42,999 bases of DNA from a virus. The DNA is taken from positions 1 to 42,999 of the IMG/VR virus record IMGVR_UViG_3300050821_015776, one strand, 5' to 3'. The translations under genes and the position numbers were made by a program. Positions 30,734 to 42,282 of the stretch are shown piece after piece; position 1 is the stretch's first letter; every line of letters starts with the position of its first letter. A model generated the notes under the pieces. The model saw nothing but the letters and a program-made list of their open reading frames with translations. It had not been told where the DNA came from and did not search any database.

Positions 30734-31180
30734 TTATTTTGTGAGCAATTCGGGATTTTCGTAGATGTTGCCGCCTGGAAACTTCTTCATCTCGCTCATT
30801 ACCCGCGCCCAGCTCACCCTTTCATCCGGCTTCAGTGTGCCTTTCTGACTGTGAAACTTAATGGCGAGGAGGGCTTGGGTTTTCTTCTCTTGAAGGAAAG
30901 GCGAGATCGTCGTGAGGAAATCCGCAGCCTCAGATGACGTGATTTGCCAGTTGAAGATCGTCTTGTTCACTCCCTTTTCCTGCATACGAATTGTGCCGCC
31001 AAAGAGATCTTGCACCTGTTCCAAAATCATCTGGTTCGTATTGGTAATATGCGCGATGACGTAATAGGAACTCTCGTTCTGATTCGATTGCTTCAATCTC
31101 ACGCACCCTTCCCCATCGAAGAATCCTGCGATATAAGCGATCTTAGCCGTAATGGTTTCTCTGCCATTCTTAACCTTCAT
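30734..31180 (-). CDS. LAGLIDADG homing endonuclease
   Basis: This 148-aa protein contains IAYIAGFFDGEGCVRL near residues 13-28, the LAGLIDADG helix and catalytic Asp/Glu in the form AGFFDGEG, and typical strands (YYVIAHITNTNQMILEQVQDLFGGTI). One motif per chain implies a homodimer. It lies between SSB and the YopX-like gene, overlapping the latter by 11 bp. It is free-standing, not in an intron or intein visible here, and may target phages lacking it. Confidence 0.85.
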   Translation of the reverse strand: MKVKNGRETITAKIAYIAGFFDGEGCVRLKQSNQNESSYYVIAHITNTNQMILEQVQDLFGGTIRMQEKGVNKTIFNWQITSSEAADFLTTISPFLQEKKTQALLAIKFHSQKGTLKPDERVSWARVMSEMKKFPGGNIYENPELLTK

Positions 31181-33476: not shown

Positions 33477-34508
33477 ATGGATCGCCCTAAGCTGCCCTTC
33501 GCGCAGATCAAGCGCGAAGTGTCCGTCGTGTCCGTGGCTCGACGATATGGGTTCGAGCTGAAACCAAATGGCGATAAGAACTGGCTACACGGCGAATGCC
33601 GCCTTCGTACACACGAATCGAAGAAGAGCAAGACTTCGTTCGGCGTGAACATCGCCGGCAATTACTGGGTATGCCATTCCGATTCCTGCAAGGCGAACAG
33701 GGAAGGAAAGAGCGGGGGGGATGTCATCACGCTCGTGCATCTGCTCGACGGTTGCGACTATTACACGGCCGCCAAAAAGTTGATGGACGATTTCCTCGGT
33801 GTCGCCCCGACGGCACCTTCCAAACCTGAGAACGGCCACAAGCCGTCGCCCAAAGCGGAACCTGAAAAGAAGCCGGAGCCCACAAAAGCGGAGGCTCCCA
33901 TTGCAAACCTGCCGCTCAAATTTCAATCGGGATTCAAGGACATCGACCATGCCCACGAATACCTGAAACGGCGCGGCATCAAACCCGAAACGGCAAAGGC
34001 GTTCGGCGTCGGGTTCTACGGCGGGAAATCCACCGTCATTAAGGACCCGTACCGGATCGTCATTCCCATCCACAACCGCCTGGCCGAGCTCGTCGCCTAT
34101 GTGGGACGATCGATCGATCCGGAGGCGAACGACAAGTACCACTTTCCTTCCGGATTCCACAAGACCCTCGAACTTTTCAATCTACATCGAGTAGGCGAAC
34201 AGGCCGACATGGTGGCAATTGTTGAGGGATTCTTCGGCACCATGAAGGTCAGTCAAGCCGGTTTTCCCAGCGTCGTCGCACTCATGGGACGGACGCTCTC
34301 GGAGGCGCAAGAACATCTTCTTGCGCGCTTTGACCGCATCGTTCTCATGCTCGATCCTGATGTGCCGGGAAGGGAAGCGCAGGCGGAACTCCTGCCCCGA
34401 CTCGCCGCCCGTCATTTCGTGTATGCGGTGAATCTGTCGGACGGAAACCAGCCCGACAGCCTCTCCTCGGAAGCAATCCAAAAACTCTTAGCCCCTATCA
34501 TGCGATAG
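33477..34508 (+). CDS. CHC2/Toprim DNA primase
   Basis: This 343-aa protein has an N-terminal zinc-binding domain with Cys41, His46, Cys66 and Cys71 (C-x4-H ... C-x4-C, wider than the classical CHC2 spacing) in a DnaG-like context (FAQIKREVSVVSVARRYGFEL, then SGGDVITLVHLLDG). A Pro/Lys linker follows, then a Toprim domain with VAIVEGFFGTMKV (Glu250), VALMGRTLS and LMLDPDVPGR (Asp293, Asp295), the catalytic acidic set. It makes replication primers. AGAGGTG precedes the ATG. Its final codons and stop form part of a terminator hairpin. No linked helicase domain is present. Confidence 0.92.
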   Translation: MDRPKLPFAQIKREVSVVSVARRYGFELKPNGDKNWLHGECRLRTHESKKSKTSFGVNIAGNYWVCHSDSCKANREGKSGGDVITLVHLLDGCDYYTAAKKLMDDFLGVAPTAPSKPENGHKPSPKAEPEKKPEPTKAEAPIANLPLKFQSGFKDIDHAHEYLKRRGIKPETAKAFGVGFYGGKSTVIKDPYRIVIPIHNRLAELVAYVGRSIDPEANDKYHFPSGFHKTLELFNLHRVGEQADMVAIVEGFFGTMKVSQAGFPSVVALMGRTLSEAQEHLLARFDRIVLMLDPDVPGREAQAELLPRLAARHFVYAVNLSDGNQPDSLSSEAIQKLLAPIMR

Positions 34509-34517
34509 GGGCTTTTT
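34490..34517. terminator. bidirectional Rho-independent terminator
   Basis: Stem AGCCCCTATC (34490-34499) pairs with GATAGGGGCT (34504-34513) around ATGC, followed by a T-run on the plus strand. On the minus strand the stem is followed by AAGAGTTTTT. It overlaps the primase stop codon and precedes the convergent secreted-protein gene end at 34516. Confidence 0.9.
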
Positions 34518-35115
34518 ATTGGATGGGCGGAACCGATGCCGGCGTCGAATCCCCTGAATCGAGATCGTCCTTGCCCGAAGGCAACGGCTCTTTTCCGTTG
34601 TGCACTTTTATCTTCACCGTAATCGGCGGTTCGTCGCCTTGTTGATCCCGGACCACCGCGTATGCGCGGAGCATTCCATGCCCTTGAAATCGGACGGGAT
34701 TGTCAGAATCAGGAAGGTTGTGCGCCGTGTTCATGATGTTGGCACTAAATGGACCATAGGGACTCGCGACATTGTGCCGCCAATAAGCAACCCAGTCATC
34801 CGGATTATTCCCCATCATCTGGTATTGCCAGTTCCGCCATTTTTGGGGAAAGGTAACCCACCCTCCGAAACATCCTGCGTTCAGTTCGATGTCAATATAC
34901 GGAGGGTTCCGCTTTCCGAGAGGTGCTTCGCTCTGATAGGCATCGTCGCAGATGAGTTGGCTGTAGCGCATCGGAGCTGATTGCTGGGAAGTCGCGCTTG
35001 CGGTCTTTATAAGCGGCCGCCTCGCCATCAACCAAATGATGCCGAATAGCACGAAAACAAACAAAAGCGCAAAAAGGCCAAACAATATGGCACGCGACGT
35101 GTGCTTGAGGCTCAT
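34516..35115 (-). CDS. signal-anchored extracytoplasmic protein
   Basis: This 199-aa protein has an N-terminal membrane helix (AILFGLFALLFVFVLFGIIWLM, about 9-30) followed by a 170-residue exported domain with Trp-rich strands (GCFGGWVTFPQKWRNWQYQ; WVAYWRHNVAS) and RFQGHGMLRAYAVVR. Two Cys residues (about 56 and 82) could form a disulphide. It is convergent with the primase across a terminator. No family is recognised; host envelope modification is plausible. Confidence 0.6.
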   Translation of the reverse strand: MSLKHTSRAILFGLFALLFVFVLFGIIWLMARRPLIKTASATSQQSAPMRYSQLICDDAYQSEAPLGKRNPPYIDIELNAGCFGGWVTFPQKWRNWQYQMMGNNPDDWVAYWRHNVASPYGPFSANIMNTAHNLPDSDNPVRFQGHGMLRAYAVVRDQQGDEPPITVKIKVHNGKEPLPSGKDDLDSGDSTPASVPPIQ

Positions 35116-35164: not shown

Positions 35165-35815
35165 ATGAACGATGATGAGTGGATCGATGATGGGGTGGAA
35201 GATGAACCAGTCTACCCATACGACGCATTTGATAAAAGGGACTATCGTAAGGTGCTTTCGGAGGAGCCCGACAGGATTGTTTACCCCGGCTATAGTGATT
35301 CTTATTTCCAGGCGAGCAAGTATCTAATGAAGGGGATCGTAGAAGGCGAGCTCGACGCGCGCGCATATGGTACGGCAACGACGTTTCTCTTTCGCCATTA
35401 CATTGAATTGAGTGTGAAGGAGCTCGTGCTCAGTGCTCGTTCTATAAAGAGTGACGGGACAAATGCTGAAGAGATCAAGAAGATCAAGTGGGAGCATTTC
35501 CTGAAGAAGCTCTGGAATGAATTTTGTGATGCTGCGCCTCATAGAATAGGTGAGAAGTTTTGGCGACAAATCGATAAGGAATACATCACCGGCCTGATCG
35601 AGGAGTTTGACGACAAAGACCGGAAGAGCATGGCGTTCCGATATGACGATCAGCAGAAGTACAACACTGACTTCAGGGAGCTGTACGAGAACCTTGATCA
35701 CATTCATGACGTGTTGAATAAGCTCAGCGCCTATCTAGTCGATAGATATTTGAAGAACTTGGATGGCAATTGGAACCTCGCGCTGTCCTACCTGGATGTT
35801 CCTGATTTTGATTAG
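35165..35815 (+). CDS. HEPN-like helical protein
   Basis: This 216-aa protein is mostly helical. Its most telling stretch, TATTFLFRHYIELSVKELVLSARSI (about 71-95), resembles the conserved first helices of a HEPN-like group linked to toxin-antitoxin and defence loci. A classical R-x4-6-H active site is not clearly present (RHYIEL only). It stands alone with its own promoter and a strong terminator, as expected of a moron. A GGAGG lies 14 nt before the ATG, too far for an ideal site. Function as RNase or binding factor is inference. Confidence 0.6.
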   Translation: MNDDEWIDDGVEDEPVYPYDAFDKRDYRKVLSEEPDRIVYPGYSDSYFQASKYLMKGIVEGELDARAYGTATTFLFRHYIELSVKELVLSARSIKSDGTNAEEIKKIKWEHFLKKLWNEFCDAAPHRIGEKFWRQIDKEYITGLIEEFDDKDRKSMAFRYDDQQKYNTDFRELYENLDHIHDVLNKLSAYLVDRYLKNLDGNWNLALSYLDVPDFD

Positions 35816-36829: not shown

Positions 36830-36881
36830 TTTTGATTTGTTTTCGACCTTTGCGCAGTGCTGCTTCACTGCTGTTCATTGA

Positions 36882-36997
36882 GGTATGGGGAGGGTTCCCT
36901 CGACGGTCAAGGAGGAACGTCCAAAGGGCCGCTCGGCGCGTGAGCGACGGCGGCAAAGGGTCGTAGTTCCTTGAGGGGCGAGGGGACGCCCCATACC
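36882..36997. repeat. 116-bp nested inverted repeat (long hairpin)
   Basis: Three nested complementary segments occur in order: 36882-36890 GGTATGGGG with 36989-36997 CCCCATACC; 36897-36902 CCCTCG with 36979-36984 CGAGGG; 36907-36918 with 36966-36974 (TCAAGG...GAAC against GTTCCTTGA, 3-nt bulge). Gaps on the two sides are nearly equal, so a long rod with a GC-rich head is predicted. It lies just after the distal ATPase gene, in 250 bp without a gene. Candidate non-coding RNA, transfer origin or mRNA end. Confidence 0.7.
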
Positions 36998-37073
36998 ATG
37001 AAAAAGCATGTGAAGCACTCTTAACCTGGGGTGGCGGGCGGGAATAACAGGCGAGGCGAAGCCCTGTAGCGGA

Positions 37074-37090
37074 AACTCGCTCTTAGCGAG
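37074..37090. repeat. short stem-loop over the ATPase stop codon
   Basis: ACTCGCT (37074-37080), CTT, then AGCGAGT (37084-37090) form a perfect 7-bp stem covering the stop codon of the ATPase gene. No T-run follows, so it may stabilise the mRNA end. Confidence 0.5.
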
Positions 37091-38372
37091 TGCGCCGCGA
37101 AGGACGAGGCGAGCGATCCTTTCGAGGGGGCGTCTCTTTCGGCGTGAGGAATTGCAGGATGGGGGCGTCCGCGGCATTGCGCTCGACGCAGTAGCGCCGG
37201 AAGCTCTCCGCAATGACGGCGCCGGCCGGCGGTTCAGTGCCGGTCTTGCGGATGGCCCTCAGCGCCTTTACCACGCCGGAGTTGACGGGGGTTGCGCCCT
37301 TCACGTGATAGCAGATGAACTCGTGGTTCGCGAGGCCGACGATGAGATTGGCCGCGCCCTCGTCCAGGTAGTTCTCCTCGATCTCCTTCGCGTCGCGCCC
37401 GCTCACGCGATAGACGATCGCGTTCTGGCAGTTGCCGAAGAGGGATGAGAGAGAAGGAAAGTTCTCTAGATACTGCGACGCCATGCACAGCGAAATATTG
37501 TATTTACGCAGCTCTGCGAGGAAGGTCTCGAAGTCAACGCCATGGAGAAAATTCTGCACCTCGTCCACGAAGACGAAGAACTGCGGCGCGTCCGGCTTCC
37601 GGCGGAGGGCCGCGATGGAGATGTTCCCAAGGATAATGGAGCCGATCAGTTGTGACGCTTCGGACCCCAGGGCGCCCTTGGACACATCGACCAATATGAT
37701 TTTGCGCTCGTTCATGGCACGCAGAAAATCTATGGGCCGTTCACGCGACATGAGGGGACGAAGCGTGGGAAGGACGAAGCCGTCGATCTTGTTGAGCGGC
37801 GGCGAGAACTTCGCCATCTGCTCGGTGGTGCGGAGTTTGGCGTCGTACTGCTCTGAGAAATCCGCGAGGAGCGGGTTCGTGCATTTGGAAAGGATGTCTT
37901 TGCGGAACGTGTCGCGGGCGATAAAGAGATAGATGGCGGGGATATTGATAAAGCCGTAGTACTCCGTGATGGCGAGAAGCGCACCCATGAAGATGCGCTC
38001 TGTTTCGTCTCCCCAGGCGTTGCGGAAGATCGATTTGAACATGCTGACGAAGAGGGAAATGTAAAGCTGCTCCTCCTCCTTCGACGCGTATTGCGGGATG
38101 ATTCCGGGGACATGGCTTGCGGTGGGGCGAACGAGGATCACATCGTTCATCCGGTGTTTAGGAATGTAATGGAGAATCTTATCAACCGCCGTGCCGTGCG
38201 GGTCCTGAAAAAGGCCGCCATATCCCTGCCGGATCAGCGAAATGAACTGGTTAGTAAGCATCGTTGACTTGCCTACGCCGGTTTGCCCAACGCAAAAACT
38301 GTGCGGCTTCATATTGATCGAGAACGGCGTGTTTACCGCCGTGCCGATCGTGATGGGGATATTGTCATTCAT
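37083..38372 (-). CDS. TraG/VirD4/HerA-like DNA-translocase ATPase B
   Basis: This 429-aa protein (ATG 38372; a GTG at 38390 is also in frame) has Walker A GQTGVGKST (29-37), QDPHGTAVD (56-64) as in TraG-type and HerA-type ATPases, Walker B FFVFVDE (265-271) and a motif LRKYNISLCMASQ (288-300) equivalent to the glutamine sensor of coupling proteins. No N-terminal membrane helices are present, unlike VirD4. Such soluble ATPases occur with replication-relaxation proteins in mobile elements. The basic C-terminus (RKDRSPRPSRRTR) may touch DNA. It is the last gene of the mobilisation-like operon. Confidence 0.85.
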   Translation of the reverse strand: MNDNIPITIGTAVNTPFSINMKPHSFCVGQTGVGKSTMLTNQFISLIRQGYGGLFQDPHGTAVDKILHYIPKHRMNDVILVRPTASHVPGIIPQYASKEEEQLYISLFVSMFKSIFRNAWGDETERIFMGALLAITEYYGFINIPAIYLFIARDTFRKDILSKCTNPLLADFSEQYDAKLRTTEQMAKFSPPLNKIDGFVLPTLRPLMSRERPIDFLRAMNERKIILVDVSKGALGSEASQLIGSIILGNISIAALRRKPDAPQFFVFVDEVQNFLHGVDFETFLAELRKYNISLCMASQYLENFPSLSSLFGNCQNAIVYRVSGRDAKEIEENYLDEGAANLIVGLANHEFICYHVKGATPVNSGVVKALRAIRKTGTEPPAGAVIAESFRRYCVERNAADAPILQFLTPKETPPRKDRSPRPSRRTR

Positions 38373-38381
38373 GTCCTTCGT

Positions 38382-38424
38382 CCTTCCCACCGTGCGAGGC
38401 GGACACCGCCTCGAAGCGGGAAGG
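38382..38424 (-). promoter_or_regulatory. leader hairpin that covers a ribosome binding site
   Basis: Outer stem CCTTCCC (38382-38388) / GGGAAGG (38418-38424) and inner stem CGAGGCGG (38395-38402) / CCGCCTCG (38406-38413) are perfect. On the mRNA the 3' outer arm is GGGAAGG, the best Shine-Dalgarno match for ATPase B, 9 nt before its ATG. Folding would hide it. Confidence 0.6.
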
Positions 38425-38490
38425 TACGAGGGACGGAGTACCCGGAATCCCCTGGGGGAAGCCGATCATTATTAAGTGTGTCATTTCTGC

Positions 38491-38670
38491 TTAAGAAGTC
38501 GAGGCGCGGTTGGGGCAAGTCTTCGCCTGGTGACCCTCTGTTTGGCAAAGACTGCATTTCTTTGGACCGCGAGATGAGTTGTGAGCGGCCTGATCCTGTG
38601 GTGAGAGCTCAACGTACACTCTGCCCTCGTGGACGATGAAGGACTGTCCCTGCAGTTCGAAGATGTTCAT
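38491..38670 (-). CDS. 59-aa CCHC zinc-knuckle protein
   Basis: ATG 38670, stop 38491-38493, with an AAAGGT site upstream. The sequence MNIFELQGQSFIVHEGRVYV forms likely strands, and residues 39-52 read CSLCQTEGHQAKTC, an exact C-x2-C-x4-H-x4-C zinc knuckle as in retroviral nucleocapsids, preceded and followed by basic residues. Zinc knuckles bind single-stranded nucleic acid. It lies between the replication-relaxation-like gene and ATPase B, so a role in handling the transferred strand is plausible inference. Confidence 0.75.
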   Translation of the reverse strand: MNIFELQGQSFIVHEGRVYVELSPQDQAAHNSSRGPKKCSLCQTEGHQAKTCPNRASTS

Positions 38671-38694
38671 ACGTTACCTTTCGTGTTGGTGGCG

Positions 38695-39543
38695 TTATTC
38701 GATGAGTCCGTGCGGCCGAACGTCAAAATCTTTCGGCGCGTAGAAGATCTTCTCCGTGGGCCGCGTGGTGATGGAGTCAAGGTCGGTGATGTGGGGCCAC
38801 AGATACGGGAACTGCCCCGCGATCCGGTTCACAAAGTTCTCCACCATGGCGCGTTCGCGAAAGATGAAGAGGACTTTGCCCTTCTGCTTCCGCATGAGCT
38901 CGTTGTACCGGCGCACCTTGAGCACGATGTCGCTCTCACCGTTCACGCTTGAGGGTTCCGAGTTGGCGTACTCGATCCATATTGGTTCGCCGCCAAGGGT
39001 CGCCTGCGCGTCGGGATAGAAAGAGATCACTTCGCCATCGACGTCCACGGTCGTCTTCACATCCTGCTTCTGCTGGCGCCAGTCGTCGAGGGCGGCGCCG
39101 AACGCGTGGTCGAGCGCCAGGTGGATGATCGTGATGACGCGGTCATGGTCAACCCGACTCTCCGCTTTCGATCGCCATGCAATCGGATTCTCGATGACCG
39201 CCGACGCCTTCGCTCCTCCTTGGTCGGTGAGGTAATGGAAGTTCGGTTTCGGCCTGATCCTGCCATCGGGCAACGCGAGCTTGTTCACAGTGCCGCATTT
39301 CCGGCAGATGATTTCCCTAAAGAAATCCTCCCGTTGTTTTCCGCCTTCCACGCGCCCGAGGAGTCCGATCAGGCATAGCTGGCGGAGCCGCTTCCGGAGG
39401 GAGACGACGTTGCGGTCGGACAATACGGCAAGCTCGTCGGCGGTTAGGAAGCTGAACTTACCGACGTAAAGATAAATGTCATCATCCTCACTCCGGCGAT
39501 AGAGGCCTCTTTTTTGCGGGCTTTGGTTTAGGGATCGCGGCAT
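38695..39543 (-). CDS. replication-relaxation family protein (relaxase-like)
   Basis: The ATG at 39543 has AAAGGAGA 6-7 nt upstream; a longer ATG start at 39603 is possible. The 282-aa product has an N-terminal winged helix (DIYLYVGKFSFLTADELAVL, residues about 22-65), a Cys pair CRKC (80-83), then a domain with FYPDAQATLGGEPIWIEYANSE and ESDIVLKVRRYNEL. The spacing PD-x12-E-x17-K (Asp178, Glu191, Lys209) resembles a PD-(D/E)xK-like nuclease core, as in Replic_Relax proteins of mobile elements. It overlaps ATPase A by 56 bp. Nicking at an origin is inferred from the family. Confidence 0.75.
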   Translation of the reverse strand: MPRSLNQSPQKRGLYRRSEDDDIYLYVGKFSFLTADELAVLSDRNVVSLRKRLRQLCLIGLLGRVEGGKQREDFFREIICRKCGTVNKLALPDGRIRPKPNFHYLTDQGGAKASAVIENPIAWRSKAESRVDHDRVITIIHLALDHAFGAALDDWRQQKQDVKTTVDVDGEVISFYPDAQATLGGEPIWIEYANSEPSSVNGESDIVLKVRRYNELMRKQKGKVLFIFRERAMVENFVNRIAGQFPYLWPHITDLDSITTRPTEKIFYAPKDFDVRPHGLIE

Positions 39544-41035
39544 GGACGTCTCCTTTCTCAAGGAAACGAGCTTCCGCTTCTTGGAGGATGCGGTTGACTT
39601 CATCGGTGGGTATTGCCTGTTTTTGGAGGGCTTGCTTACATTCTAGAATTGTTTTGGAATTGAGCAAGCCGGCATAGTCCGTCACCAGGGGCACCTTGAA
39701 AAAGCGAACCCCTTGGGGCGTCTTGATGTAGCACTCACGCTTCCGGAGGAAGACGATGCGCTCCGCGAGCTGGGCGATTTTCTCCTCGCGAGTCCAGTCC
39801 TCCTGGCCGTCCCGTTCTTTGCGAAGGCGCGGCTCGAACCGGGTACCGCGGCTGACGGAGCTCGACATCGAATACCCGCCACCCTCGGTCTTTCGTTCGC
39901 CGGACTCTGCCCAATTGGATTGGTCGCCCCACCCGCTGTTCTCAATCTCGTAGGCGACCTTCTCGTATTCCGTGACATATCGGAAGCGCTCCTCCTTGCA
40001 CTTCCGCGCGTTGGCTTCCAAGAACCAGAATTCCTCGGCCCACATCTTGGCTTCGGGGATCGGGCTGCCGCCGAAAACGACTTTGATCTGCGCATTGGTC
40101 TGCATGGACCCCAGGAGATGATGCTTCCCGGCAAATTGTCCCAAGTGCTGAAAGACAAGCGTCACCCGCAACCCGGACTTGGTGACCTCATCGAGGATGC
40201 GTCCGTCCTCGTCGGATAGATAATTGCTCGCCTCGTCGAAATACGCGAAACATTTTTTGGGGTCGTTGGCGTTCATCATCGCCGCGTCGAAAAGCTCCGA
40301 GACCATGAGCGACGCGAACACCCTGGCCGAGTCGCGGTCCAAATAATCGGAGTGCTCAAGATTCACGAGGACGATCGCCTTTTGCCGGATGCACTCGGCG
40401 AGGGAGATCGATTCTCCCTGGACGCCCATGAACCGGATGACCGCGGGGGAACTAAGGAAGCGGCCGAGCCGGTTCTGGGTGGAAAGCACATGGGTGTCCC
40501 ACTCGCGCAGTGTTTTGATGTACTGCAGTGTCTTCCACTGCTGCCGCACGCGTTCGTTTGCGATCGAGGAGATGGCATAATTGCGCAGTCCAGGGTTCGC
40601 AAAGTCGAGGAGCTGCGCGGCATGGTGGAGAGGTTCGCCGGTCTCGGCCATGAACTGGACAACCATCTTGATGATCCGTTCGAGGGTCGGCTTGTCATTC
40701 AAGTTCGATTCGCCCCAGGGCTTCACGAGCAGGGACGCCGTGCGGTTCACGTGGGTCGAAACCTGGCGCCCCGGCCTGAGTGCGAATGGGTTGTACGGGA
40801 CGACGCAGTCCGGGCTCGACGGGTCGATCAGGATCACCGGCCGCTTCGGCCGCTGGTATGAGAGGAAGCCCACGAGCGAGCGGTACATCCTCCCGTGCCA
40901 GTCAAGCGCGAACACCGCGGCGTCGCCGTTCACGATGTGTTTGCGGATGCAGAACTCGCACCATTTGGACTTGCCGCTTTGCGTGGTGCCGCCGCACATG
41001 CAATGAGTCGATAGACGATACTGGCTAGGCAGCAT
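39488..41035 (-). CDS. TraG/VirD4/HerA-like ATPase A
   Basis: This 515-aa protein starts at ATG 41035 behind AGGAGG (5-nt spacing). It has Walker A GGTTQSGKS (15-23), ALDWHGRMY (43-51), Walker B CFAYFDEAS (262-270) and a glutamine motif GLRVTLVFQHLGQF (288-301). The region after residue 330 is charged and helical. Like ATPase B it lacks membrane helices. Its Walker A is only 15 residues from the start, so the protein begins directly with the motor domain. Two different TraG-like motors in one operon suggests a heteromeric machine or separate steps. Confidence 0.85.
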   Translation of the reverse strand: MLPSQYRLSTHCMCGGTTQSGKSKWCEFCIRKHIVNGDAAVFALDWHGRMYRSLVGFLSYQRPKRPVILIDPSSPDCVVPYNPFALRPGRQVSTHVNRTASLLVKPWGESNLNDKPTLERIIKMVVQFMAETGEPLHHAAQLLDFANPGLRNYAISSIANERVRQQWKTLQYIKTLREWDTHVLSTQNRLGRFLSSPAVIRFMGVQGESISLAECIRQKAIVLVNLEHSDYLDRDSARVFASLMVSELFDAAMMNANDPKKCFAYFDEASNYLSDEDGRILDEVTKSGLRVTLVFQHLGQFAGKHHLLGSMQTNAQIKVVFGGSPIPEAKMWAEEFWFLEANARKCKEERFRYVTEYEKVAYEIENSGWGDQSNWAESGERKTEGGGYSMSSSVSRGTRFEPRLRKERDGQEDWTREEKIAQLAERIVFLRKRECYIKTPQGVRFFKVPLVTDYAGLLNSKTILECKQALQKQAIPTDEVNRILQEAEARFLEKGDVHAAIPKPKPAKKRPLSPE

Positions 41036-41288
41036 AGCTGCCTCCTATTCCAGTACCGCCACCCCGCCGCGTCGCGACGGATCGGGTACCTGGCCGGTGC
41101 TGATAAGCAATTTCGAAGCGATAGTGAGAAATAGGACAGGTACCCGAGCCGGAGCGAGGGCGGGGTGGCGAATCAGTAGCGTGCGTTAGCACATTGATTT
41201 TTCGGTAATTATTAAAGGCACGGCACTTCTTCGCGACAATTTTTTTCGGCGTACCGGCGATAGCAGGACGATACGATTTGGATTTCAT
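41025..41288 (-). CDS. possible 87-aa basic protein spanning a hairpin
   Basis: ATG 41288 overlaps the previous stop (ATGA) and has GGAGG 7 nt upstream. The first 30 residues (KSYRPAIAGTPKKIVAKKCRAFNNYRK) look like a basic protein; the rest is encoded by the strong inverted repeat at 41057-41170 and has unusual composition. The stop falls inside ATPase A. It could be a leader whose translation opens the hairpin, rather than a functional protein. Confidence 0.4.
   Translation of the reverse strand: MKSKSYRPAIAGTPKKIVAKKCRAFNNYRKINVLTHATDSPPRPRSGSGTCPISHYRFEIAYQHRPGTRSVATRRGGGTGIGGSYAA
41057..41170. repeat. 114-bp nested inverted repeat upstream of ATPase A
   Basis: Outer arms 41057-41068 and 41159-41170 (CGCCACCCCGCC/GGCGGGGTGGCG) are perfect 12-mers; inner arms 41083-41092 and 41137-41146 (CGGGTACCTG/CAGGTACCCG) are perfect 10-mers. 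The repeat ends 11 bp before the AGGAGG of ATPase A. A candidate origin of transfer, attenuator or regulatory leader. Confidence 0.7.
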
Positions 41289-41887
41289 ATACCGTCCTCC
41301 TCATTCTCGGTAATGCGAAAGAAGCGGTTACGAAATGTATCAAGAGCTTCTTCCACCGAGGTTCCAAAGTCACTAACATTCCAGATGTCTTTGAATTCTT
41401 GGCGAATGAATGATCGACCCCTCTCGACCTTGGCTGCTGCGTGGAGCCGCTCAAGAAATTCAAGGGTCTCCCGTTCGCTGCGACTGGGTTGATGACGCGG
41501 CGGACGAGAGGGTGAGGGGAGACAGAGGGGTTTGGGTGGATCGGGGCGAGGCGAAAGCGGTTTGATCTGACGGACGACAGCCCTCCGGATTTCAAAACCC
41601 GGCGGGCTGATGATCCTAAGGCCGATGGCGAGGGAGTGATACGCGGAAGGATCGATCGCCGCGTCCGCCGATGGAAATTGCAAAACCCAGCGGTTGGTGA
41701 TTGCCTCAGCCTCATGGGAAAGTTGGCGCCTGATTTCTTCCGTGCTCCCATCGGTGTCGAGCACGAACTGACAAAACGTGGAGATCTTGGTACACGCCAG
41801 AATGAAATCCAGTGTGACGCTGATCTCTTCTCTGCTTTTGAGTTGGGGTATGAAGGTGAATGAGAAATCCAGCTCATCGTGTCTCAT
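41285..41887 (-). CDS. unknown 200-aa protein of the mobilisation-like operon
   Basis: This protein overlaps its upstream neighbour by 4 bp and its downstream neighbour by 4 bp (ATGA at both ends), giving strong evidence for real, coupled translation. The N-terminal part includes FSFTFIPQLKSREEISVTLDFILAC, the middle is Pro-rich (PLSPRPDPPKPLCLPSPSRPPRHQP) and the C-terminus is helical with RFFRITENEEDG. No known domain is seen. It may be a partner of the ATPases or the HTH protein. Confidence 0.65.
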   Translation of the reverse strand: MRHDELDFSFTFIPQLKSREEISVTLDFILACTKISTFCQFVLDTDGSTEEIRRQLSHEAEAITNRWVLQFPSADAAIDPSAYHSLAIGLRIISPPGFEIRRAVVRQIKPLSPRPDPPKPLCLPSPSRPPRHQPSRSERETLEFLERLHAAAKVERGRSFIRQEFKDIWNVSDFGTSVEEALDTFRNRFFRITENEEDGI

Positions 41888-42147
41888 CGGCCACCCCCGA
41901 AGTGTCCTTCGCCGAGGAGCCGGCGATAGACGCGCTCGACCACGGGTTCAGGGATGCGGAGCATCACCCATTTGCGGGGTTTTCGATGGCCCGTTTTGGA
42001 AGGGGGGCGTTCGTGCAGAGAGGTTCGGCGACTGATCTTGATTACGCCGGGTTCATTGGCGAAGAGGTCGCGGATGAGATCGGTTGAGGCGTTCCAGCAG
42101 GTGGCGAGCTCAATGACGGAGAAATGCCGCTCACGTGGATTGAACAT
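41884..42147 (-). CDS. excisionase/MerR-like HTH protein
   Basis: ATG 42147 follows GAAGGAG (5-nt spacing), better than a longer start inside the repeats. The 87-aa protein has FSVIELATCWNASTDLIRDLFANEPGVIKI, a MerR/excisionase type winged HTH, and ends KWVMLRIPEPVVERVYRRLLG. This RIPE.V.ERV.RRL ending is a pattern I recall from many small HTH proteins of Acidobacteriota. It is the first gene of the operon and lies next to direct repeats that could be its binding sites. Confidence 0.75.
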   Translation of the reverse strand: MFNPRERHFSVIELATCWNASTDLIRDLFANEPGVIKISRRTSLHERPPSKTGHRKPRKWVMLRIPEPVVERVYRRLLGEGHFGGGR

Positions 42148-42180
42148 ACGAATGCTCCTTCGGCAATCGAACGTCCGATT

Positions 42181-42282
42181 CTCGTGAGGCACACCCCCTA
42201 TCAAGGAAGATGGTCCACTGCAATCGACCTTCTATGTCCGCCTCGTGAGGCACACCCCCTATCAAGGAAGATGGTCCACTGC
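42181..42282. repeat. tandem direct repeats upstream of the HTH gene
   Basis: A 41-bp sequence at 42181-42221 is repeated exactly at 42242-42282 (period 61). The 20-bp between them begins AATCGACC and ends GTCCGC, and bases before the first copy (GCAATCGA...GTCCG at about 42163-42177) match this spacer in part. It is therefore an imperfect 61-bp tandem duplication rather than a CRISPR. Candidate operator or iteron for the HTH protein. Confidence 0.75.

Follow-up and report, generated by a model that had tools for sequence, protein, structure and literature searches.

The stretch of viral DNA described here, referred to below as the window, is the entire IMG/VR virus record IMGVR_UViG_3300050821_015776 (42,999 bases), in which no terminal repeats were found. 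An earlier note, made from the sequence alone, had described within it a mobilisation-like operon of six open reading frames encoding two DNA motors and a nuclease-like protein. All six frames are present on the minus strand at the positions given there, and we have revised the likely starts of three of them, to ATG 42147 for the helix-turn-helix (HTH) protein, ATG 39543 for the Replic_Relax protein and ATG 38372 for ATPase B. The genes of the operon and two neighbouring genes are listed below, where G038 denotes a related phage and G049 a bacterial genome that holds a related prophage.

41884..42147, minus strand: HTH DNA-binding-like protein, 87 residues from ATG 42147 (106 residues from TTG 42204); orthologue in phage G038
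41285..41887, minus strand: 200-residue protein with no assigned fold and no membrane segment; 4-bp overlap with the HTH gene
39488..41035, minus strand: ATPase A, 515 residues, type IV coupling protein-like motor by structure matches; PHROG 5156
38695..39543, minus strand: Replic_Relax (PF13814) protein, 282 residues, candidate MOB_C-type relaxase; PF13814 match at E = 3.1e-05
38491..38670, minus strand: CCHC zinc-knuckle protein, 59 residues; orthologue in the G049 prophage
37083..38372, minus strand: ATPase B, 429 residues from the ATG, VirD4/TraG-like motor; PHROG 5156 at 2e-35
34516..35115, minus strand: single-pass membrane protein, 199 residues, with phmmer homology to a G049 membrane protein
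33477..34508, plus strand: DnaG-like primase, near the module and on the opposite strand; Toprim and DNAG_N above cut-off

The two Walker A motifs on which the claim of two motors was based, GGTTQSGKS and GQTGVGKST, are both present, and the Walker A and Walker B residues are invariant across homologues. Pfam returned nothing useful for ATPase A. The AlphaFold2 model of this protein (pLDDT 81) has as its top matches in the Protein Data Bank (PDB), as identified by Foldseek, Cag-beta (8dol, 1.5e-10) and TrwB (1e9s, 5e-10), with VirB4 and HerA structures trailing at ~1e-6. Helices spanning residues 92–203 are inserted between the core strands, at the place where TrwB carries its all-alpha domain. 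The modelled chain therefore has the RecA-like motor, the Walker A and B motifs and the all-alpha-domain insertion of a type IV coupling protein (T4CP), and we conclude from the model that ATPase A folds like TrwB and Cag-beta. ATPase B gives a weak Pfam match to TraG-D_C (4e-4) that falls under the cut-off, and has orthologues of 31–47% identity in seven phages. Both ATPases match the same PHROG family of unknown function (phrog_5156), ATPase A at 1.5e-16, and are therefore taken to be paralogues.

In the related phages, the DNA 5′ of ATPase A encodes membrane proteins predicted to cross the membrane between one and three times; in most relatives ATPase A is either preceded by such a protein or fused to it, fusion being seen in G026. 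In the window a 199-residue membrane protein is encoded 2 kb downstream of the operon (34516–35115), and phmmer relates it (2.6e-9) to the G049 membrane protein whose gene overlaps the start of ATPase A. The module therefore extends past the coordinates of the earlier note, and this protein is, to judge from its sequence, the probable membrane partner of ATPase A. Between its gene and the module lies a gene on the opposite strand (35165–35815) for a 216-residue protein with no Pfam or NCBIfam family match.

The 282-residue protein scores 24.3–24.6 bits against PF13814 where the curated Pfam cut-off is 25.3. Its orthologues reach 38.7–48.7 bits (48.1 for L082 and 38.7 for G048, for example), above the cut-off, and the family is matched at E ≤ 0.01 in six of eight phage members. 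Residues H133, W155, P177, D178, E191 and K209 are invariant across 29 homologues. In the predicted structure (pLDDT 88, pTM 0.83), a winged helix is followed by an alpha-beta core, in which the conserved D and E lie on adjacent strands and the K in the following helix. The best two PDB matches spanning the chain are VC1899 (6e-5) and Can2 (2e-3), which we take to be winged-helix PD-(D/E)XK nucleases. Lack of a nuclease-like fold had been named as an observation that would count decisively against the operon's proposed role; the fold is present in the model, together with the invariant H/PD/E/K residues, and the protein, a Replic_Relax member to judge by its orthologues, is modelled with a winged helix and a PD-(D/E)XK nuclease core.

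The PF13814 family has been equated with the CONJscan MobC (MOB_C) relaxase superfamily (PMC5357655), and MOB_C relaxases are PD-(D/E)XK-related enzymes for which no covalent link to DNA has been detected (PMC12857230). The PD-(D/E)XK core with conserved acidic residues by which MOB_C proteins are recognised is found in the 282-residue protein. We regard it as a candidate MOB_C-type relaxase that would, like others of this class, nick an oriT at a specific site and on a specific strand, an assignment that is founded on the equivalence of PF13814 and CONJscan MobC (PMC5357655) and not on direct comparison with CloDF13 MobC or pAD1 TraX. The earlier description of the operon as having no classical HUH relaxase holds in that no relaxase of the HUH type is present, but the Replic_Relax protein itself appears to belong to a known non-HUH relaxase family.

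As single-protein queries, ATPase A, ATPase B and the Replic_Relax protein retrieved no relatives in scans of IMG/VR or GTDB contigs. A search with the terminase retrieved 47 related phage contigs, many at 79–87% identity. Among 28 longer contigs, the primase is present in 15, and all eight of those that run well past the primase encode ATPase B. The other seven (G002, G009, G012, G018, G027, G031 and G036) stop within 1.6 kb of the primase, before the module; either the assembly broke where the sequence is variable, or genes of non-viral appearance were trimmed from the provirus. In the annotated loci the order is ATPase A – Replic_Relax – (small genes) – ATPase B, on one strand and upstream of the primase, and a second scan revealed further phage contigs and two Acidobacteria metagenome-assembled genomes (MAGs) carrying this triad. 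The conserved co-occurrence that had been proposed as a check is observed for the triad. The module is best explained as part of the phage backbone; among the related contigs it is present in all eight that extend as far as this locus, which argues against the suggestion that it is a satellite lying beside a phage. The operon frames are retained at 16–53% identity in independent contigs and are therefore not chance open reading frames, and the identical layout of these contigs rules out a chimeric assembly.

The module has diverged far more than the genes around it. In relatives whose terminases are 81–87% identical, the Replic_Relax proteins are only 16–30% identical, and phages with AAA_24 proteins of 83–85% identity have Replic_Relax proteins of 16–21%. 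The most divergent terminase among those compared (57%) goes with the closest Replic_Relax protein (43%). This mismatch between terminase and Replic_Relax divergence suggests that modules have been exchanged between phages. Phage G032 encodes a ParB-like protein downstream of its module (L062 3055–4422, minus strand), and a similar-looking gene occurs in G028.

The MAG G049 (Acidobacterium sp. palsa_291) contains a prophage collinear with the window, with identities of 86% for the terminase, 82% for the portal and 81% for the major capsid protein. It is bounded by 23-bp att repeats (116013 and 168104), one of which coincides with the 3′ end of a tRNA-Met gene. The integrase is encoded at 116078–117160, the module at the opposite end (160923–166741), and host genes lie beyond both sides. 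The repeats and the flanking host genes define a prophage of 52.1 kb, and the window represents a fragment of such a genome, ending before the integrase. In further relatives the integrase gene immediately precedes the module and is next to a tRNA gene (SeC, Leu). Across attP, operon and integrase are adjacent. We conclude that the family consists of ~52-kb temperate siphophages of (soil) Acidobacteriota that integrate at tRNA genes. A Patescibacteria host, which the sequence style had initially suggested, was dropped because the integrases, the host genes and the complete prophage indicated Acidobacteriota. The tRNA-integrated state of the relatives and their integrases speak against a phage-plasmid, one of the earlier suggestions. 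Nor does the operon directly adjoin the virion genes, as had been thought, since ~12 kb, occupied by small genes and genes for replication, separate it from the terminase. A LAGLIDADG-type endonuclease gene is found at 30734–31180, flanked by YopX-like and single-stranded DNA-binding protein (SSB) genes.

The core of the operon also occurs away from phage genes, a point that the earlier note had proposed to check. In 17 loci, from Verrucomicrobiota and one Planctomycetes MAG, a related ATPase is found with a Replic_Relax protein, and in the DNA fetched a primase is present in 14 of the 17 and ArdC, a conjugation-linked antirestriction protein (PMC7213743), in ten; some of these loci also carry ParAB. 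The Acidobacteriota MAG G087 has an ATPase–Replic_Relax pair near a recombinase-like gene, with no match to the virion genes of the window within the 19 kb fetched. In the Verrucomicrobia MAG locus L113 (5177–7779), inspection by eye picked out JAB/E1-, E2- and ubiquitin-like genes upstream of an ATPase–ArdC–Replic_Relax–primase cluster, which is followed by metal-efflux-like cargo. A lone, larger relative of ATPase B (~600–940 residues) is widespread in Patescibacteria (L083–L159) without a Replic_Relax neighbour, and has an N-terminal membrane segment in both of the two proteins checked.

Orthologues of the smaller operon proteins were also found. The HTH protein has a counterpart of 43–44% identity (E = 5e-18) at the matching position in G038, where the 200-residue protein is also represented (35%, E = 1e-30); the C-terminal part of the latter is weakly similar (E ~1e-3) to small membrane proteins encoded 5′ of ATPase A in G032 and G028. 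The zinc-knuckle match of the 59-residue protein is weak (18.3 bits against a Pfam cut-off of 20.8), and its G049 orthologue (41% identical, E = 7e-15), which is encoded between Replic_Relax and ATPase B, passes with 23.4 bits (PF00098).

The three most stable hairpins of the entire 43 kb all lie in spacers of the operon. They are listed here with z scores calculated against dinucleotide shuffles, together with a pair of repeats.

41057..41170, minus strand: hairpin H1, in the spacer 5′ of ATPase A; z −6.0, the strongest in the window; 84% identical in G038
38372..38435, minus strand: hairpin H2, in the spacer 5′ of ATPase B; z −4.3
36879..36999, minus strand: hairpin H3, immediately 3′ of ATPase B; z −5.4
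42181..42282, no strand assigned: a 41-bp sequence in two exact direct copies, 61 bp apart, 5′ of the operon; may be an operator or a site bound by the relaxase

H3 is found at the matching place in four phages (the window and three others) with compensatory changes, and the H2 spacer also contains hairpins in several relatives, some of them not strong. That the hairpins are general host repeats is not supported for H3, which gave no match in any of six host genomes, an empty answer that carries little weight. The hairpins may be oriT-like, regulatory or terminator elements. Exact repeats were found at the corresponding place in none of seven relatives, and the 41-bp repeats, being confined to the window, were rejected as a conserved oriT.

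We favour the interpretation that the operon is a CloDF13-like mobilisation module, comprising a MOB_C-type relaxase and coupling ATPases, which belongs to the phage backbone and could use the type IV secretion system (T4SS) of a helper; we put its probability at roughly 0.45. It is preferred because the folds, the active site, the membrane partner and the gene neighbourhoods fit such a module. In this respect the term mobilisation-like operon is well supported by the coupling-protein fold, the MOB_C-type nuclease and the matching genes on plasmid- or integrative mobilisable element (IME)-like loci. The alternative term, minimal conjugation module, overstates the case, since there is no T4SS channel and the phage would at most be mobilisable in trans: Pfam, PHROG and NCBIfam scans of the window found no VirB4 or mating-pair formation genes, which a self-transmissible element would carry. 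Genes for VirB4-like proteins occur at other places in the host genomes G049, G048 and G087, and helpers may therefore exist. Following excision of the prophage, the Replic_Relax nuclease would nick a single strand of the circular DNA, at an origin within the operon or close to it, and strand replacement would be aided by the primase and SSB. ATPase A, anchored to the inner membrane by its single-pass partner, would then dock the nicked DNA on the T4SS of another element, with ATPase B acting as a second DNA motor or as a partner of ATPase A.

Several observations weigh against mobilisation. The phage has no T4SS genes and no recognised oriT, and the VirB4 matches in the host genomes fall below the equivalog cut-off. 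Neither ATPase A nor ATPase B of the window has the N-terminal transmembrane domain of a T4CP, and the global TM scores of the VC1899 and Can2 matches are low (0.34 and 0.31). Two motors are atypical of a mobilisation module, and conservation in eight of eight phages exceeds what would be expected of an optional transfer function. Finally, the lack of a known covalent DNA intermediate for MOB_C relaxases (PMC12857230) leaves a pilot function uncertain. The further proposition, that a temperate tailed phage spreads in two ways, inside virions and by sending naked DNA through a conjugation channel borrowed from another element, by means of a relaxase and coupling protein in its backbone, is accordingly advanced only tentatively.

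Of the other explanations, a replication module survives best. Here the Replic_Relax protein would nick the phage origin for rolling-circle-type replication, in the manner of P2 gpA, which has a different nuclease fold. The ATPases would unwind or resolve DNA or hand it to packaging, with no cell-to-cell transfer. The primase, SSB and an annealing-type AAA_24 protein adjoin the module, and a primase does so in the Verrucomicrobiota loci also. This explanation is kept alive because the module is found in all of the phages examined (eight of eight reaching the locus) with a primase nearby, and because no other initiator or helicase was recognised in the window among the families searched. However, ATPases of the T4CP type with membrane partners are not known as replicative motors, and the genes of the module have changed much more than certain replication genes next to them, as the AAA_24 comparison above illustrates. 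We consider this role somewhat unlikely.

A part in defence or superinfection exclusion, in which a HerA/VirD4-like motor and a PD-(D/E)XK nuclease at the integrase end of the prophage would degrade or block competitor DNA, is kept in consideration because a motor together with a nuclease is a common defence architecture. As is typical of defence genes, those of the module diverge rapidly and sit next to the integrase; HerA defence complexes are among the secondary structural matches of ATPase A, and ATPase B resembles the MADS protein mad8 (2e-16). Against this, the T4CP matches of ATPase A outrank those to HerA, no PADLOC system was matched in full, and the mad8 similarity is to the ATPase alone, with no other mad protein among the operon proteins; we judged the resemblance of the ATPases to MADS and to CedD to be general motor homology. 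Moreover, the triad is retained in all relatives and never replaced by other systems, and the company of ArdC, ParAB and primase outside phages fits mobile-element functions better, so that defence appears distinctly unlikely. The least probable role is to segregate or maintain a prophage kept as an episome, which has been proposed for Bacillus phages with Replic_Relax and FtsK-like genes. Bacillus phages encode FtsK/SpoIIIE or a T4SS protein, and ParM/RHH genes, alongside Replic_Relax, and ParB is encoded downstream of the module in G032. The relatives, however, integrate at tRNA genes with an integrase, and scans of the window recognised no ParA or ParM.

Transfer by phages and transfer by conjugative elements are commonly regarded as distinct routes. 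If the module does serve mobilisation, the two would be joined by a whole phage family whose backbone includes T4CP-like motors and a MOB_C-type relaxase; relaxase-based mobility typing could then label a phage as mobilisable, and virus-calling tools may trim such genes as non-viral. The system also allows the role of a MOB_C-type nuclease in transfer, in replication or in both to be tested.

The presence of Replic_Relax proteins in phages is already known, the precedent being the Bacillus phages Tsamsa/Izhevsk, Kirov, Novomoskovsk and Thrax, some of which also have an FtsK-like or 'type IV secretion' gene (PMC9658697, PMC9703825). These are suspected plasmid prophages, in contrast to the tRNA-integrated phages described here, and no protein similarity to the Bacillus Replic_Relax phages was found in the phage collection. 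In pGIAK1-like plasmids, Replic_Relax and VirD4 genes are likewise adjacent, in that order (PMC3756968), but a VirB4-like gene is present and phage genes are absent. IMEs with Rel_PF13814/MobC resemble the phages in combining an integrase and a relaxase without a channel (PMC5357655), and differ in having no virion genes. The plasmid- or IME-like loci of Verrucomicrobiota and Planctomycetes (L113, L150, L102 and others) share the ATPase – Replic_Relax – primase arrangement, but have a single ATPase, often ArdC, and no phage genes recognised nearby. The closest parallel to the proposed module is CloDF13, a MOB_C1 plasmid with its own T4CP, the membrane domain of which is essential for mobilisation (PMC7431656). 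Its MobB coupling protein and MobC likewise combine a MOB_C-type PD-(D/E)XK relaxase with a dedicated coupling ATPase, lack a channel and need a helper T4SS, a likeness of organisation and not of directly compared sequences, as intact mobB and mobC frames were not recoverable from the CloDF13 record. The phage module is distinguished from CloDF13 by its two ATPases, its separate membrane anchor and its setting in an HK97-type phage.

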